From the NCBI GenBank assembly GCA_029262795.1, contig JAJCYT010000022.1, positions 1 to 40,460 on the forward strand: a DNA stretch of 40,460 nucleotides, read 5' to 3'. This document shows positions 17,081 to 24,481 of the stretch, in pieces. The notes below the pieces were generated by a model. The model was not told the origin of the DNA, made no database searches, and saw only the letters and a list, made by a program, of their open reading frames with translations. Numbering within the stretch: the stretch's first letter is position 1; every line of letters starts with the position of its first letter. The position numbers and the translations under genes are program-made. This DNA comes from Candidatus Fraserbacteria bacterium (lineage in GTDB: Bacteria; Bipolaricaulota; Bipolaricaulia; RBG-16-55-9; JAJCYT01).

Positions 17081-17581
17081 CTACTTGTAGAGTGTGGGAT
17101 CGTGTTCGTTGATTTGGATGGGCAGGCCATCAGGATCATGAATGAGCATGGAACGTCCAAATGCCTCGTCCACGATGTCGCCTTCCACTTTGATTCGTTT
17201 GGACTTCAGCGCTTTGATGATGTTCTCCAACGGTTGATGCGCCGTCAGTGCCAGCCCCATCTGATTGGATCGTTTGTTGATTTTTTCAATACCGTGCAGT
17301 GCGAATGAACTGTCGCCCATTGTCAGTTGGGACCACATTTGCCCTGTGTGGATTGGTTGTGCGCCCAAGGCTTTGTAAAACGTCAGCGATTTTTTCATCT
17401 GGGTCACATACACAATCGGCATCAAACTGACCATTTCAGTAGAACCTTCCGACTGCTTCAATCGCTGCGCCAACGACGTTTCCACAAACTGAGACAGCGA
17501 TTCCTCCACATCAATCGCCGCATGTTTGATCTCACGAATCAACCCGTCCGGCAGATAAACATTAAACTGTTGCTTGTTCAT
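17081..17581 (-). CDS. Ribbon-helix-helix DNA-binding domain fused to a VOC domain; probable ligand-responsive autorepressor
   Basis: A 166-aa protein of two parts. Residues 1-44 (FNVYLPDGLIREIKHAAI then EESLSQFVETSLAQRL) match the strand-helix-helix plan of CopG/Arc/ParD ribbon-helix-helix domains. Residues about 50-160 form a VOC domain: LMPIVYVTQMKKSLTFYKAL, SSFALHGIE, and MLIHDPDGLPIQINE. RHH domains bind DNA as dimers, and VOC domains dimerise and bind small molecules, so a sensor-repressor is the natural reading. A 9-bp-armed palindrome (17581-17604) overlaps the start codon, which supports autoregulation. There is no Shine-Dalgarno before the ATG, so the mRNA may be leaderless or have a very short leader. 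The downstream VOC gene is the likely co-regulated enzyme. Confidence 0.8.
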   Translation of the reverse strand: MNKQQFNVYLPDGLIREIKHAAIDVEESLSQFVETSLAQRLKQSEGSTEMVSLMPIVYVTQMKKSLTFYKALGAQPIHTGQMWSQLTMGDSSFALHGIEKINKRSNQMGLALTAHQPLENIIKALKSKRIKVEGDIVDEAFGRSMLIHDPDGLPIQINEHDPTLYK

Positions 17582-17604
17582 ATTAGTATGCTAGTATACT
17601 AATA
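17581..17604. promoter_or_regulatory. Palindromic operator overlapping the start of the RHH-VOC gene
   Basis: TATTAGTAT (17581-17589) is the exact inverse complement of ATACTAATA (17596-17604), with a 6-nt centre that repeats the TAGTAT theme. Read on the minus strand, a TATATT -10-like hexamer adjoins it upstream and the ATG lies at its end. This is the expected site for a repressor that blocks RNA polymerase at its own promoter. Confidence 0.7.
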
Positions 17605-17655
17605 TAGTAATTTCAAACGAAATAACCGGAAAATAAGATGGAGGATTTGTTTTGT

Positions 17656-18189
17656 TTAGGGTTTAAGTTTTTCTTGATATTTTTTTCTAATGTATTCTGG
17701 ACAAACAAATATGATTTTAAGACCAATCTCTTCAATAGCATCCTTAAAGCCCCACCACTTACTATCAGTAGCTTCTAGTATAGGTGGTTTTTCTGGATGA
17801 GCATTGGAAACTGCTAAGAATTTATGATCTGACTTATCAAAGCTTTTTAAATTTTTATGAGTGGGGAATTCATTATAAGAGTTACCTTTCTTAGTAATTT
17901 CTACTTGGTTGGATTCTAATAGTCCAAAACGATTATCGTGAACCCATTTCATGAATTTGTCGCCAGGCCCAGGTTGTCCACTCATTGATAATTGATCTCT
18001 ATATTCATCAAAAATTTCATTTTCAGTATCCAACACTAAAGCATTTTTGTTTATTACATGTTCAATAACATCTATGCAATCAAGAACACATTCTTCTAAC
18101 TCAAGGGGAACTTGGCTTGGGTTTACAGAAAGGTTTGCAGTTTTTGGAACATTAGTATCAATAACGTATTTTTCAGGGAATTGTTTCAT
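17656..18189 (-). CDS. PIN-domain-like nuclease, partner of the ATPase upstream
   Basis: A 177-aa protein of very AT-rich coding sequence. YVIDTNV places Asp11 and Asn13 as the first PIN motif; NEIFDEY supplies the central acid (Glu58 or Glu62), KSDHKFLAVS the third (Asp121) and ATDSKWW the fourth (Asp142). This is the Mg-dependent RNase-type active site of PIN proteins. There is no antitoxin gene of the VapB kind next to it. Instead it starts 3 nt after the stop codon of a DUF3696-type ATPase and lacks a good SD of its own, so it should be translated by coupling. The pair is best read as ATPase sensor plus nuclease effector. The target (RNA or DNA) is unknown. Confidence 0.72.
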   Translation of the reverse strand: MKQFPEKYVIDTNVPKTANLSVNPSQVPLELEECVLDCIDVIEHVINKNALVLDTENEIFDEYRDQLSMSGQPGPGDKFMKWVHDNRFGLLESNQVEITKKGNSYNEFPTHKNLKSFDKSDHKFLAVSNAHPEKPPILEATDSKWWGFKDAIEEIGLKIIFVCPEYIRKKYQEKLKP

Positions 18190-18192
18190 GAG

Positions 18193-19602
18193 TTATTCAG
18201 GTTGATTTCTCATAGATATTTTCTTTTTCATGGCTTCTTTACCTTGGGCTGTAATATCACCAATTTCATCTCCAAAAAAGTTTTTTGGCCAATTTCTCAC
18301 CATTCCAAACATGTCAATTTCAAGAGGGGCTAGCCGAGCAGAAGTTGTAGTGAATTCTGCGTTATAAGCTGAGATTTTTTCATGAGAAATAGAGTTTTCC
18401 CCTTTTGTTTGTGCTATTCTTCTTTGAAGCCTTCGTAAAAAATGCTCCGAATGTGTTTCAACAATAAGTTGAATATTTCGATTTTGGTTATTTTCTTTAG
18501 AATTGATTGCGTCGATAAAAACATCGGCAAGAGCAGCTTGAGCCCTTGGATGCAAATGTATTTCTGGTTGTTCCATAATGATAATGGAATTAGCTGGCGC
18601 ATAAAATATTTGTACTAATACAGGCAAAACTTGAGAGACTCCAAACCCTACATCTGGCAAATCAACGAAATCTTGAGAACCTTTAGTTCTAACTTTAACT
18701 TCATATTCTTGTCGTTGATCAGAAATAGGGTTAACTTTAAATTCTTCAATCAATTCCATCTCTTTCAATTTCTGTGCAATAATTTTCTCGAAAGGTTGAG
18801 TATGACGTTTATAACCAAGCCCAATTTTCCGATTACGAGCTGAAAGAATAGCTGCAATAGTATTTTCACCAGAATATCCAACACTTTCTGGCTCAAATCC
18901 GGGCCAGTGATAAAGTCTTTCTGTTTTGGTTCTCAAAGGACCTAAATAAAAAACTGAGCGAAAGAATTTTTCATGGGCAAGATTTAGCTCTTGGACAAAA
19001 TCAGCATTCTGGTGATAAGCAACTACCTCGTCAGGAAATCCATAAAATCTTACTGGAGGGCCTGGATACCAAACACGCCCTTGCTGTCTTTTTAGAGGAT
19101 AATGATCAACATTAACTTTATAGTTTGACTTTGATTGTGAATCACGTTCCATTCCTATGGCTAAAGACTCTTTGCCATCTTCTTTGTAAACCTTGTAATC
19201 TAATTTATCTACTACAGGTACATTTTGATCAGATGTGTTGGTGCTAACTAAGCCAGCAAAGGAGATACTTTTACCAGAAAAATCCTTATTTGTAATTGGG
19301 TCTTGAAATTTGAATGTTTTTGATAAATCCCAAATATATTCAAATTCAATCTTATTATTAATATCCCTATGAAAAACCATTTCTTGATATGATCCTAGTT
19401 GAACAACAGAGTTTTTACCTCCTGGATAAAAAACAGCTTTTCTATCAGGCCATTCTATTGTTTGACGAAGCATCATTAAAAATTGCCCGATACTAGATTT
19501 ACCAGAACTATTCACTCCAAAAAAAAGGGTAATTGGAGACATCTTGATAGATTTAGTGTCTTGCCATCCTTTAAAGTTTTTCAATCTAAATCTATTTAGC
19601 AT
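18193..19602 (-). CDS. AAA/ABC-type ATPase with C-terminal DUF3696-like region
   Basis: A 469-aa SMC/OLD-like ATPase. NFKGWQDT and FFGVNSSGKSS (Walker A, Gly29-Ser36) are at the N-terminus. GFGVSQVLPVLVQ resembles an ABC signature at about residues 315-330, IIIMEQPEIHLHPRAQ is Walker B (340-347), and LIVETHSEHFLRRL is the switch segment. The end, IDMFGMVRNWPKNFFGDE, matches the DUF3696 pattern. Such ATPases are frequent in phage-defence modules where they control a nuclease. Here the next gene, 3 nt on, is a PIN-like nuclease. AGAGGAG lies 8 nt before the ATG. The coding sequence is much richer in A and T than the neighbouring ALDH and VOC genes, which suggests horizontal acquisition. Confidence 0.85.
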   Translation of the reverse strand: MLNRFRLKNFKGWQDTKSIKMSPITLFFGVNSSGKSSIGQFLMMLRQTIEWPDRKAVFYPGGKNSVVQLGSYQEMVFHRDINNKIEFEYIWDLSKTFKFQDPITNKDFSGKSISFAGLVSTNTSDQNVPVVDKLDYKVYKEDGKESLAIGMERDSQSKSNYKVNVDHYPLKRQQGRVWYPGPPVRFYGFPDEVVAYHQNADFVQELNLAHEKFFRSVFYLGPLRTKTERLYHWPGFEPESVGYSGENTIAAILSARNRKIGLGYKRHTQPFEKIIAQKLKEMELIEEFKVNPISDQRQEYEVKVRTKGSQDFVDLPDVGFGVSQVLPVLVQIFYAPANSIIIMEQPEIHLHPRAQAALADVFIDAINSKENNQNRNIQLIVETHSEHFLRRLQRRIAQTKGENSISHEKISAYNAEFTTTSARLAPLEIDMFGMVRNWPKNFFGDEIGDITAQGKEAMKKKISMRNQPE

Positions 19603-21781: not shown

Positions 21782-24481
21782 CTACTCAGCAAATTGTGCC
21801 TGAGAAAGCTCTTTTCCACTGATCCAGTGATCGATGAGGACCTTGATCATTTTGTCGGTGATCACTTTGCCATTGGTGTTTGGCACGGGCTTGCCCATGA
21901 TCCAATAGTCAATGGCAGTCATAATCTCATCGTCATCAATGATGTCGTTGATGTTGGTGTCCAGCACTTCAGTAATCGGTGGATCGCCGAAGGTGAAGGC
22001 ACATTTGCTCACATCAATGTTGCCGAAGTTGTCCGTCACTTTTAGATCAATCACCCAGCGGCCCAACCCTTTAAACACATGAACCGGATTACGCACGGTG
22101 CCGCGAATGACTTCGGAACCAATGTGTGCAGAACAGCCAGAAAGATTGTTCTGGTTACAGGTGCCGCCGTCGCCAAAGTCCCACATCCAGTCAACAATAT
22201 CAGAGTTGTTGCTGGTTGATCCATCGCTCAAACGAACCACCAGTGTGGTGCTGGACAAGCGCGAAATGACTTCGGCTTCACAGCGTGCCAGTGGTGCAGG
22301 CGGTACTTCAACGATGGTTGGATCTGTCGGCGTTGGTGTGGTTGGATCGTCTGTTGGAATAGGATCAGTCACAGGGGTGTTCACAATCGCCTGGTTGGAG
22401 ATCCTGCTGGCACCTGCGTTAATAAACGCTTCGAACGTAACGGTGACAATCTCACCAGGGTTAATGGTGCCAACGTTCACCTGAACTGAGGTGTCGCCAT
22501 TGCTATTGCCACTGGTTACGGTTCCTGTGGTTGTGACCACCGTGCCGTTGATCAGTGAGGTGGCTGTGTCCAGAATGTCTGAGAAGACCACCCCTGCTAC
22601 AGAAACCGAACTCACGTTAGGAATACGAATCGTGTATTTAATGGTGTCGCCAGGGCTGAAGTTACCACTGCGATCAGCGTCCGAGCGCAGGCTCACTGTC
22701 TTGGTTGGTATGACCGGCGGGCCCTGTGGTGAAACTGGGGTAACGGTTGGATCGCCCGTTTCAGGTGTGTCTGGGTTATCCGTTGGTGTTGGCCCCGTCG
22801 GCGTGTTGACCGTTCCCTGGTTGGAAATCTGGCCTGTTGCACCAGTGATGACCACATCAAACATGATGGTGGCTGTTTCACCAGCAGCCAGCGCGCCGAT
22901 ATCCACATTCACAGTGAGATCACCTGCACTATTGCCAGTGGTGACACTGCCATGCGTGGTGGTCACGCTGCCGGAAATCAACGTGGTGCCAGGATCAAGG
23001 CCGTCCACAAAGCTGACGTCGTTGATGAGGGCATTGCCGATATTTGGAATTTCAATTGTATAAGTCAGGGTGTCGCCTGTGCTGACCACACCGTTGCCGT
23101 CGTTGTCACGGTTCAAGGTTGCGCGTTTGGCGGGCGAACCTAACTCTGGCGTTTCCTGAGGTGTCACCGGTGTATCGGTTGGATCATCCGGTGGGTCAGT
23201 GTCTGGATCATCTGTTGGGTCGGGTGGGTTACCTGGTGTGGTCACAATCCCTTGGTTAGATACTGTGCCCGTTGCCCCTGCGTTGACCGTCACATTAAAG
23301 GTAATGGTGACGGTTACGCCTGGATTCACGATCCCCACATTCACTTCCACCATGTTGTCCACAGGGCTGTTGCCTTCAACAATGACGCCTTGTGGGGTGG
23401 TGGTCACCGTGCCAGTGACCAACGTGGTTTTTGGATCAGGTACGTCGGTAAACACAACGCCAGTTTGAGGCGCGCCGCCGTTGTTGCTGATAGTAATCAC
23501 ATACTGCAACGTGTCACCAGGGCTGACTGCGCCACCGCCATCGGCATCAATGAGCAGGTTAGAGCTTTTAAGCGAAACAATATTTGGTGTCACTGGTGGT
23601 ATCACCTGACAGACCGTGGGGTCGTCGGGTGTGCTGGTACTGGGATCGTCCGTCGGCACGATGGTGCCTTGTAAATCAACAAATCCCTGGTTGGAGATGG
23701 AGTTCACATTGTTGTCCACCACCACATCAAAGGTAACCCTGACTGTGATGTTAGGGTCGACAGTTCCCAAGGAAACCACGACATTACTGTCGCCGGAATT
23801 GTTACCGGAAATGATCGTGCCTTGGCTGGTACGCACACTGCCAACCACCAAAGAGGTGTTTGAATCTGGGGTGTCCGTAAATACCGCATCAATCACAGAC
23901 ACCACACCGGTGTTTGGAATATCAATGACATAACGAACGGTATCGCCCTGGCTGATTTGGCCGCCGCCATCCAGATCGTTATGTAAGGTGCAGGATTTGG
24001 TGGCGTCCACGGACGGATTGTCCTGTGGATCAACCGGCGTTTCTTCTTCATTGGTGGGTTGGCCATTGACTGAGCCTTGGTTGTGGACCATGACGGGATA
24101 GGTGATGCTATCAAACACAACCACATCAAATTCAATCATGACGGTGTCACCAGGGTTCATGTCGCCAACTTCAACAATAATGCTGCTGTCGCCACCGCTG
24201 TTACCACGAGTGACCGTCCCCTGAGTGGTGGTCACGCTGCCATTAACCAAAGAAGTCAATGGGTCTGGGAAATCGGTAAATACAACATCTTCAATAACAT
24301 CAGGTCCGGTTGCAGGAATGGTCACTTTATAATGAATGGTTTCTCCTGCCACCACTTCAACGCCACCATCACTTTTACTCAGCGTGCCCAACTGTGCTTG
24401 CGCCTCAATACCATACCCCAATGTGAATATCGAAAAAATCAATAATGGGATGAGGTAACGGAAAACGTTCGATCTTAACAT
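21782..24481 (-). CDS. Secreted surface protein: five DUF11 repeats, PKD domain, dockerin-like calcium motif pair
   Basis: 899 aa with a signal peptide (cleavage near EAQAQ, residue 29). Five DUF11/TIGR01451 repeats occupy about 31-160, 163-300, 305-447, 450-590 and 594-728; each has D.DG.G..SPGDT(I/L).Y.I.IPN, DP.TSLV.GSV.TT.G.V..GNS.GD and a VSNQG(I/T)V end. Acidic Pro/Thr linkers (PTDDPDTDPPDDPT style) separate them. A PKD fold follows at about 730-832 (DWMWDFGDGG...LKVTDNFG). The C-terminus has two EF-hand-like units, DTNINDIIDDDE and NTNGKVITDKM, each followed by a DYWI/DHWI helix, resembling a dockerin. AGGGGA precedes the ATG. It is likely a stalk-like cell-surface or adhesive protein. 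No enzymatic domain is seen. Confidence 0.87.
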   Translation of the reverse strand: MLRSNVFRYLIPLLIFSIFTLGYGIEAQAQLGTLSKSDGGVEVVAGETIHYKVTIPATGPDVIEDVVFTDFPDPLTSLVNGSVTTTQGTVTRGNSGGDSSIIVEVGDMNPGDTVMIEFDVVVFDSITYPVMVHNQGSVNGQPTNEEETPVDPQDNPSVDATKSCTLHNDLDGGGQISQGDTVRYVIDIPNTGVVSVIDAVFTDTPDSNTSLVVGSVRTSQGTIISGNNSGDSNVVVSLGTVDPNITVRVTFDVVVDNNVNSISNQGFVDLQGTIVPTDDPSTSTPDDPTVCQVIPPVTPNIVSLKSSNLLIDADGGGAVSPGDTLQYVITISNNGGAPQTGVVFTDVPDPKTTLVTGTVTTTPQGVIVEGNSPVDNMVEVNVGIVNPGVTVTITFNVTVNAGATGTVSNQGIVTTPGNPPDPTDDPDTDPPDDPTDTPVTPQETPELGSPAKRATLNRDNDGNGVVSTGDTLTYTIEIPNIGNALINDVSFVDGLDPGTTLISGSVTTTHGSVTTGNSAGDLTVNVDIGALAAGETATIMFDVVITGATGQISNQGTVNTPTGPTPTDNPDTPETGDPTVTPVSPQGPPVIPTKTVSLRSDADRSGNFSPGDTIKYTIRIPNVSSVSVAGVVFSDILDTATSLINGTVVTTTGTVTSGNSNGDTSVQVNVGTINPGEIVTVTFEAFINAGASRISNQAIVNTPVTDPIPTDDPTTPTPTDPTIVEVPPAPLARCEAEVISRLSSTTLVVRLSDGSTSNNSDIVDWMWDFGDGGTCNQNNLSGCSAHIGSEVIRGTVRNPVHVFKGLGRWVIDLKVTDNFGNIDVSKCAFTFGDPPITEVLDTNINDIIDDDEIMTAIDYWIMGKPVPNTNGKVITDKMIKVLIDHWISGKELSQAQFAE

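Follow-up and report, generated by a model that had tools for sequence, protein, structure and literature searches.

A ligase-less HEC-03 gene pair from Candidatus Fraserbacteria and the RNA ligase encoded beside most of its relatives

The stretch of DNA analysed here, called the window throughout, comprises 40,460 nucleotides (nt) of Candidatus Fraserbacteria bacterium (GCA_029262795.1, contig JAJCYT010000022.1, positions 1 to 40,460). By sequence, a pair of genes within it is HEC-03, a candidate anti-phage system catalogued in PADLOC, and it appears to be the ligase-less form of a cassette that mostly has three genes. We put at roughly 0.6 the probability that this is a two-gene HEC-03, likely acquired horizontally, whose ATPase senses infection and frees a predicted PIN RNase, which stops translation by cutting RNA of the host (probably tRNA), and from which a ligase has likely been lost.

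The two genes are co-oriented on the minus strand, 3 nt apart: an ABC-type ATPase of 469 residues resembling HEC-03B (18193..19602), with an OLD/Rad50/PtuA-like fold and a DUF3696-like end, and a HEC-03A-like PIN-fold predicted RNase of 177 residues (17656..18189). An earlier note on this DNA had described the pair at these positions, which holds, and had taken it for a candidate undescribed system, knowing no named one with this pair. That claim of novelty fails, because the pair is HEC-03 in PADLOC and because pairs of OLD-ABC ATPases and PIN proteins are already in print (PMC12839542). Over residues 1-466 the ATPase matched HEC-03B (model positions 1-457 of 458; 398.4 bits, E 1.1e-119), and over residues 8-168 the 177-residue protein matched HEC-03A (model positions 3-156 of 159; 98.3 bits, E 1.1e-28); the genes are adjacent and co-oriented. 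HEC stands for Hma-embedded candidate, a name that PMC12988326 traces to a 2024 preprint.

Searches with the PIN protein gathered 31 distinct loci. Besides the window they comprise two named genome contigs, three genomes from its phylum, five plasmid loci (12 records matched, six were taken and one near-copy was left out), one viral contig, and eight genomes of one phylum with 11 of another. Scanning genome contigs with the single PIN protein gave only two loci, and whole-genome profile searches gave more; phage records produced no tblastn match and viral contigs one locus. In 31/31 loci the gene immediately upstream of PIN is that of an ATPase, with 460-470 residues in each; the linkage, for which the earlier note had suggested a search, is conserved. 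In the window's phylum HEC-03A was found in 4/100 genomes, and these four also have HEC-03B at full length, with three partial HEC-03B-like matches (94-98 bits) located elsewhere. Distances between PIN proteins and between ATPases correlated at 0.81 over the 31 loci. Over 19 loci the correlations were 0.89 for PIN and ATPase, 0.63 for PIN and ligase and 0.60 for ATPase and ligase, values reached in 0/5000 permutations, which suggests that the three genes share a history.

The third gene encodes an RNA ligase of about 225-245 residues, found directly after the PIN gene in 19 of the 30 assessable loci (one of the 31 stops at a contig edge); in L002, L003 and L006 the ligase gene overlaps the PIN stop. 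PF09414 matched six cassette ligases (L002, L003, L006, L014, L033 and L101) at 107-121 bits, and plasmid records of Azotobacter, Tistrella, Rhodococcus and two Aeromonas carry the annotation 'RNA ligase family protein'. K44, E104, E180 and K197 (numbered on the trimmed L003 reference) are identical in 19/19 ligases; we take them to be the KxDG-motif lysine and other active-site residues. Judged from the alignments, catalytic residues are conserved in the ATPase, the PIN protein and the relatives' ligase. With 11/30 loci lacking the gene, the idea that every HEC-03 has a ligase is ruled out.

Searching in the reverse direction, from ligase to cassette, gave stronger evidence than the forward linkage. 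With a profile built from seven of the 19 cassette ligases, all 15 matches above 270 bits lay within a cassette (five in 395 genomes and ten in 398, from two phyla), and the search recovered two cassettes (G556, G525) with a divergent PIN protein that the first search had overlooked. One match, in G670, has a single in-frame TAG and was counted as present. The ligase family is exclusive to the cassette for these 15 matches, and as a general statement exclusivity was rejected, with five matches at 133-167 bits and weaker ones elsewhere. All four of the weaker kin that were checked (G577, G716, G828 and G502, at 133-143 bits with one of 63) adjoin a kinase-HD gene; the match in G690:C22 has no recognised cassette gene beside it, and that in G498 is a fragment with neither PIN nor ATPase near.

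A ligase next to a kinase-HD protein is likely an RNA end-healing and sealing pair, its ligase kin to that of the cassette. Bacterial pairs of this kind differ from HEC-03 in that no kinase/HD gene was found in 21 ligase cassettes (0/21, 320 kb in total; 3/3 positive controls were detected). The absence of that gene would suit a ligase able to work without an end-healing partner, the nuclease presumably leaving ligatable ends. RNA ligase genes beside a kinase (AAA_33) and HD protein, with no cassette near, were seen in L104 (6858-9024), L105 (6343-8417), L106 (6870-8947) and L107 (5667-7682), and in L104, L105 and L106, for example, the ligases are likewise PF09414 (122.5 bits in L105).

In the window no PF09414 ligase follows the PIN gene directly, and the RNA ligase therefore escaped the earlier note. 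The position it occupies in 19 relatives corresponds here to a 74-bp stretch past the PIN stop (17582..17655), beyond which comes a gene that we call RHH-glyoxalase (RHH, ribbon-helix-helix). The window's own genome, 92% complete, gave no match to the ligase profile at E<=10 and none to PF09414 at E<=0.01 (a control was positive in 8/14 genomes), so a ligase elsewhere in it is ruled out as far as that completeness allows; it has one RtcB. The window falls inside a clade of ten loci, with support of 99/100 in the ATPase tree and 97/93 in the PIN tree, and the other 9/9 members carry the ligase. Over all loci, five changes on the tree account for ligase presence, compared with 9.8 when it is shuffled (0/500 as low), and seven of the ten other ligase-less loci group together in the ATPase tree. 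Since the nine other clade members carry a ligase and the genome shows none, loss is likely, and the simplest reading is probably that the ligase was lost or that the cassette was transferred without it.

Base composition points to horizontal acquisition. As the earlier note had observed, the pair is AT-rich: its guanine-plus-cytosine content (GC) is 34.1% against 49.3% for the remaining window, 6.1 standard deviations under the mean of 693 overlapping window stretches of equal size, and GC at third codon positions is 22% against 55-62% in five nearby genes. Because cassette GC is far below that of the window and also below that of the flanks in 19/20 relatives checked, horizontal acquisition is likely. 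A search for direct repeats flanking the window's cassette as an insertion mark found none that was convincing, and, with no further genome of the window's genus among 100 genomes of its phylum and the gene downstream of the cassette found in 1/19 genomes of the order, the window's own, an empty-site comparison was not possible.

The mechanism that we propose is modelled on better-known systems. The sensor of infection would be the OLD/Rad50-like ABC ATPase, which would restrain the PIN RNase until a phage signal arrives; the released RNase would cut host RNA, probably tRNA, and translation would stop. Metal-dependent PIN enzymes leave 5'-phosphate and 3'-hydroxyl ends, and the cut in question should leave the same. 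In three-gene versions the ligase may seal these ends directly, so that the response can be undone. The window's ligase-less copy would act one-way, or rely on other repair such as the genome's RtcB. The Septu ATPase-nuclease pair cuts tRNA-Tyr upon infection (PMC13096335); in PARIS, AriA holds AriB, which cuts tRNA-Lys and leaves a 3'-OH (PMC12409363); tRNAs of both host and phage are substrates of a VapC PIN enzyme (PMC13273310); and T4 mends tRNA cut by PrrC (PMC3506569). A Septu- or PARIS-like design, which the earlier note had already invoked, is still the best analogy.

More tentatively, full HEC-03 may be a reversible defence, with sensor, cutter and its own sealer in one operon, translation being shut down upon infection and later recovered as the ends are sealed directly, with no end-healing enzymes involved; in that case the window would hold a one-way version minus the sealer. 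RNA-cutting defences are usually interpreted as suicide, and an operon with its own RNA ligase would, if this is true, build recovery into the design and turn the phage trick of mending cut tRNA (T4 Rnl1 against PrrC) into a host strategy. As versions with and without the ligase occur naturally, the idea is directly testable by comparison. The annotation of HEC-03 would then include a third, optional component absent from the PADLOC library used, whose models include no family for the relatives' RNA ligases (0 families for three ligases at E<=0.001).

A dedicated RNA ligase with a HEC-03-type pair was not found in the literature searched; three sources lay outside that search and might mention one, namely the 2024 HEC preprint, a survey of ABC ATPases from 2020 and one from 2016 on RNA repair in conflicts. 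No paper there joined 'RNA ligase' with 'DUF3696', or with Septu, Gabija and PIN, and what concerned RNA ligase, defense island, PIN and ATPase together was about PrrC. Pairs of OLD-ABC ATPase and PIN endoRNase around BREX have been interpreted as backup suicidal effectors (PMC12839542, 2026); by their description, rather than locus by locus, they have the same domain pairing as the window, and the main text of that survey nowhere uses the words 'RNA ligase' or 'ligase'.

Several observations weigh against the mechanism proposed here. The RNA target, the hold-and-release step and resealing each rest on analogy, and the literature that could be read yielded no experiment on HEC-03, one phage-defence paper naming the system in passing. 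The ligase, missing from 11 loci, is outside the obligate core, and the reading frame of the ATPase is fragmented in 3/31 loci (L018, L033 and L035). The window's neighbours look metabolic, as the earlier note had said; two of them were scanned against PADLOC with 0 matches, and no defence island is visible. The structure model of the ATPase is middling (predicted local distance difference test, pLDDT, 71). Among 73 close homologues none deviates more at conserved columns than the PIN protein of the window (5 deviations against a median of 1), and its ATPase ranks second of 44 (19 against 4), which may reflect decay or a changed role or constraint.

It is unlikely, though the best placed of the alternatives, that the ATPase-PIN pair acts on DNA or directly on phage RNA, in the manner of restriction, rather than on host tRNA, the relatives' ligase protecting or processing host RNA incidentally. 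The third gene is an RNA ligase, and the 177-residue protein models as a PIN fold (structure prediction and fold comparison) whose closest folds are VapC and RNase P-type PIN enzymes; both points speak against such a target.

We regard it as improbable that the ligase instead makes the damage permanent, circularising or misjoining cut RNA beyond repair by host or phage. Such a role would suit a ligase that is encoded with the nuclease and never alone in the 15 strong matches, with an active site identical in all 19, but the weaker ligase kin have kinase-HD neighbours, the arrangement seen in RNA repair pairs that heal ends, and this favours a role in repair. That the window's copy is a decayed or domesticated remnant, no longer working in its genome, seems about equally improbable: the missing ligase, the isolation among metabolic genes and the deviance of the PIN protein would all agree with it, but neither reading frame is interrupted and no catalytic residue has been lost. 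Least probable is a toxin-antitoxin module whose chief role is to stabilise mobile DNA or its own cassette, phage defence being a lesser function or none and the RHH-glyoxalase or the ATPase the antitoxin, for while the VapC-like fold and the presence of the cassette on plasmids and on a viral-contig element beside an integrase-like open reading frame (ORF) would suit it, the partner is a large ATPase in every locus, relatives sit among Hma and BREX genes, and the RHH-glyoxalase has a host-like GC of 48.5% and its own palindromic upstream site, yet occurs in only 1/19 genomes of the order, the window's own.

Several other systems resemble the pair in part. The next-best PADLOC models for the ATPase, NsnB (which we take to belong to Menshen) and PDC-M55A, scored 196.5 and 177.1 bits, far under HEC-03B, a comparison that concerns the ATPase alone. 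PARIS is similar in placing an ATPase next to a small RNA nuclease, and its AriA model reached 95.6 bits on the window's ATPase, but AriB is a TOPRIM RNase, whereas the 177-residue protein matched only HEC-03A at PADLOC E<=1 and models as a PIN fold. Septu (PtuA with the HNH protein PtuB) and retrons Eco7, Ec78 and Ec83 have an HNH nuclease where the window has PIN, and no HNH or PtuB match to the 177-residue protein was found in Pfam or PADLOC at E<=1. GajA models of Gabija/OLD matched only the ATPase motifs (34-38 bits), and the Pfam listing has no TOPRIM, no dedicated TOPRIM search having been made. VapBC toxins share the PIN fold and acidic active site, but their partner is the small VapB; here the upstream gene is the ATPase, and the RHH-glyoxalase, 74 bp downstream, has RHH matches below threshold. 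PrrC together with T4 Pnk and Rnl1 resembles the cassette in ATPase-linked tRNA cutting with an RNA ligase as antidote (PMC3506569), but there the ligase is phage-encoded, whereas in HEC-03 relatives it lies inside the cassette, without a kinase.

The motifs that the earlier note had read in the ATPase and the PIN protein are present and conserved across 31 alignment rows (all coordinates are on the minus strand). In the ATPase they are the Walker A sequence GVNSSGKS (residues 29-36; 19495..19518), with K35 kept in 30/31 rows and one gap; the signature-like GFGVSQ (residues 319-324; 18631..18648), with G319, G321, S323 and Q324 in 31/31; and the Walker B/D-loop stretch IIIMEQPEIHLH (residues 340-351; 18550..18585), with E344, P346, E347, H349 and H351 in 31/31. 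Pfam matched AAA_15 and AAA_21, with DUF3696 slightly below its cut-off (21.2 bits against 22) over the C-terminal part (residues 405-449; 18256..18390). The acidic residues of the PIN protein are Asp11 (18157..18159), Glu62 (18004..18006) and Asp118 and Asp121 (17827..17838), each in 31/31, with Asp142 (17764..17766) being D in 29/31 and E in 2/31. A PDB sequence search with the PIN protein gave no meaningful match, and Foldseek with the PIN model alone gave weak matches only.

Location in a defence island, which the earlier note had suggested looking for, applies to several relatives and is not visible for the window's copy. Relatives L002 and L003 are in BREX loci (PglZ, BrxA, BrxHI, PglX), L031 is beside PglZ and BrxL, and L056 and L058 are beside Hma-type genes, consistent with the name Hma-embedded candidate. 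On eight contigs of sufficient length for a control, 67 neighbouring ORFs matched 60 PADLOC families at E<=1e-30, against one for 88 control ORFs 50-110 kb away; this tally is not a gene count, because the families are redundant, a single helicase or methylase matching a large number of them. Of ten long neighbours picked by hand and scanned one at a time, eight matched PADLOC at E<=1e-20, and the two that did not are both from L055.

The cassette is carried by plasmids (12 records) and by L014 (1-3813), a 10-kb viral contig (IMG/VR UViG_2917855067_000003) on which an integrase-like ORF is followed by ATPase, PIN and RNA ligase, with an AlpA-like ORF later; judged by eye, the contig looks like a P4-type satellite with a full cassette. 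Nothing close to the L014 cassette was found in complete E. coli genomes. On a plasmid of Acinetobacter soli (L018, 9526-10284) an HNH endonuclease gene (HNH_2, 45.8 bits) occupies the ligase position, and the ATPase is split into two annotated genes. Two genomes of the window's class (L039, 10775-14146; L040, 5297-8707) have no ligase and encode directly after PIN a protein of about 1120-1140 residues, which from the start of its sequence looks, by eye, like a Swt1-type HEPN and DUF499 ATPase.

Next after PIN in the window, the RHH-glyoxalase gene (17081..17581, minus strand) encodes 166 residues, with a ribbon-helix-helix-like N-terminus, its RHH matches below cut-off, seemingly fused to a glyoxalase domain. 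A near-perfect palindrome just upstream of it (17577-17616; 13-nt arms ATATTAGTATGCT and AGTATACTAATAT, 92% complementary) is probably an operator of the RHH-glyoxalase itself. Elsewhere in the window, at 21782-24481, an 899-residue protein with repeated surface-type segments and, by eye, an EF-hand- or dockerin-like end is encoded beside an aldehyde-dehydrogenase-like gene.
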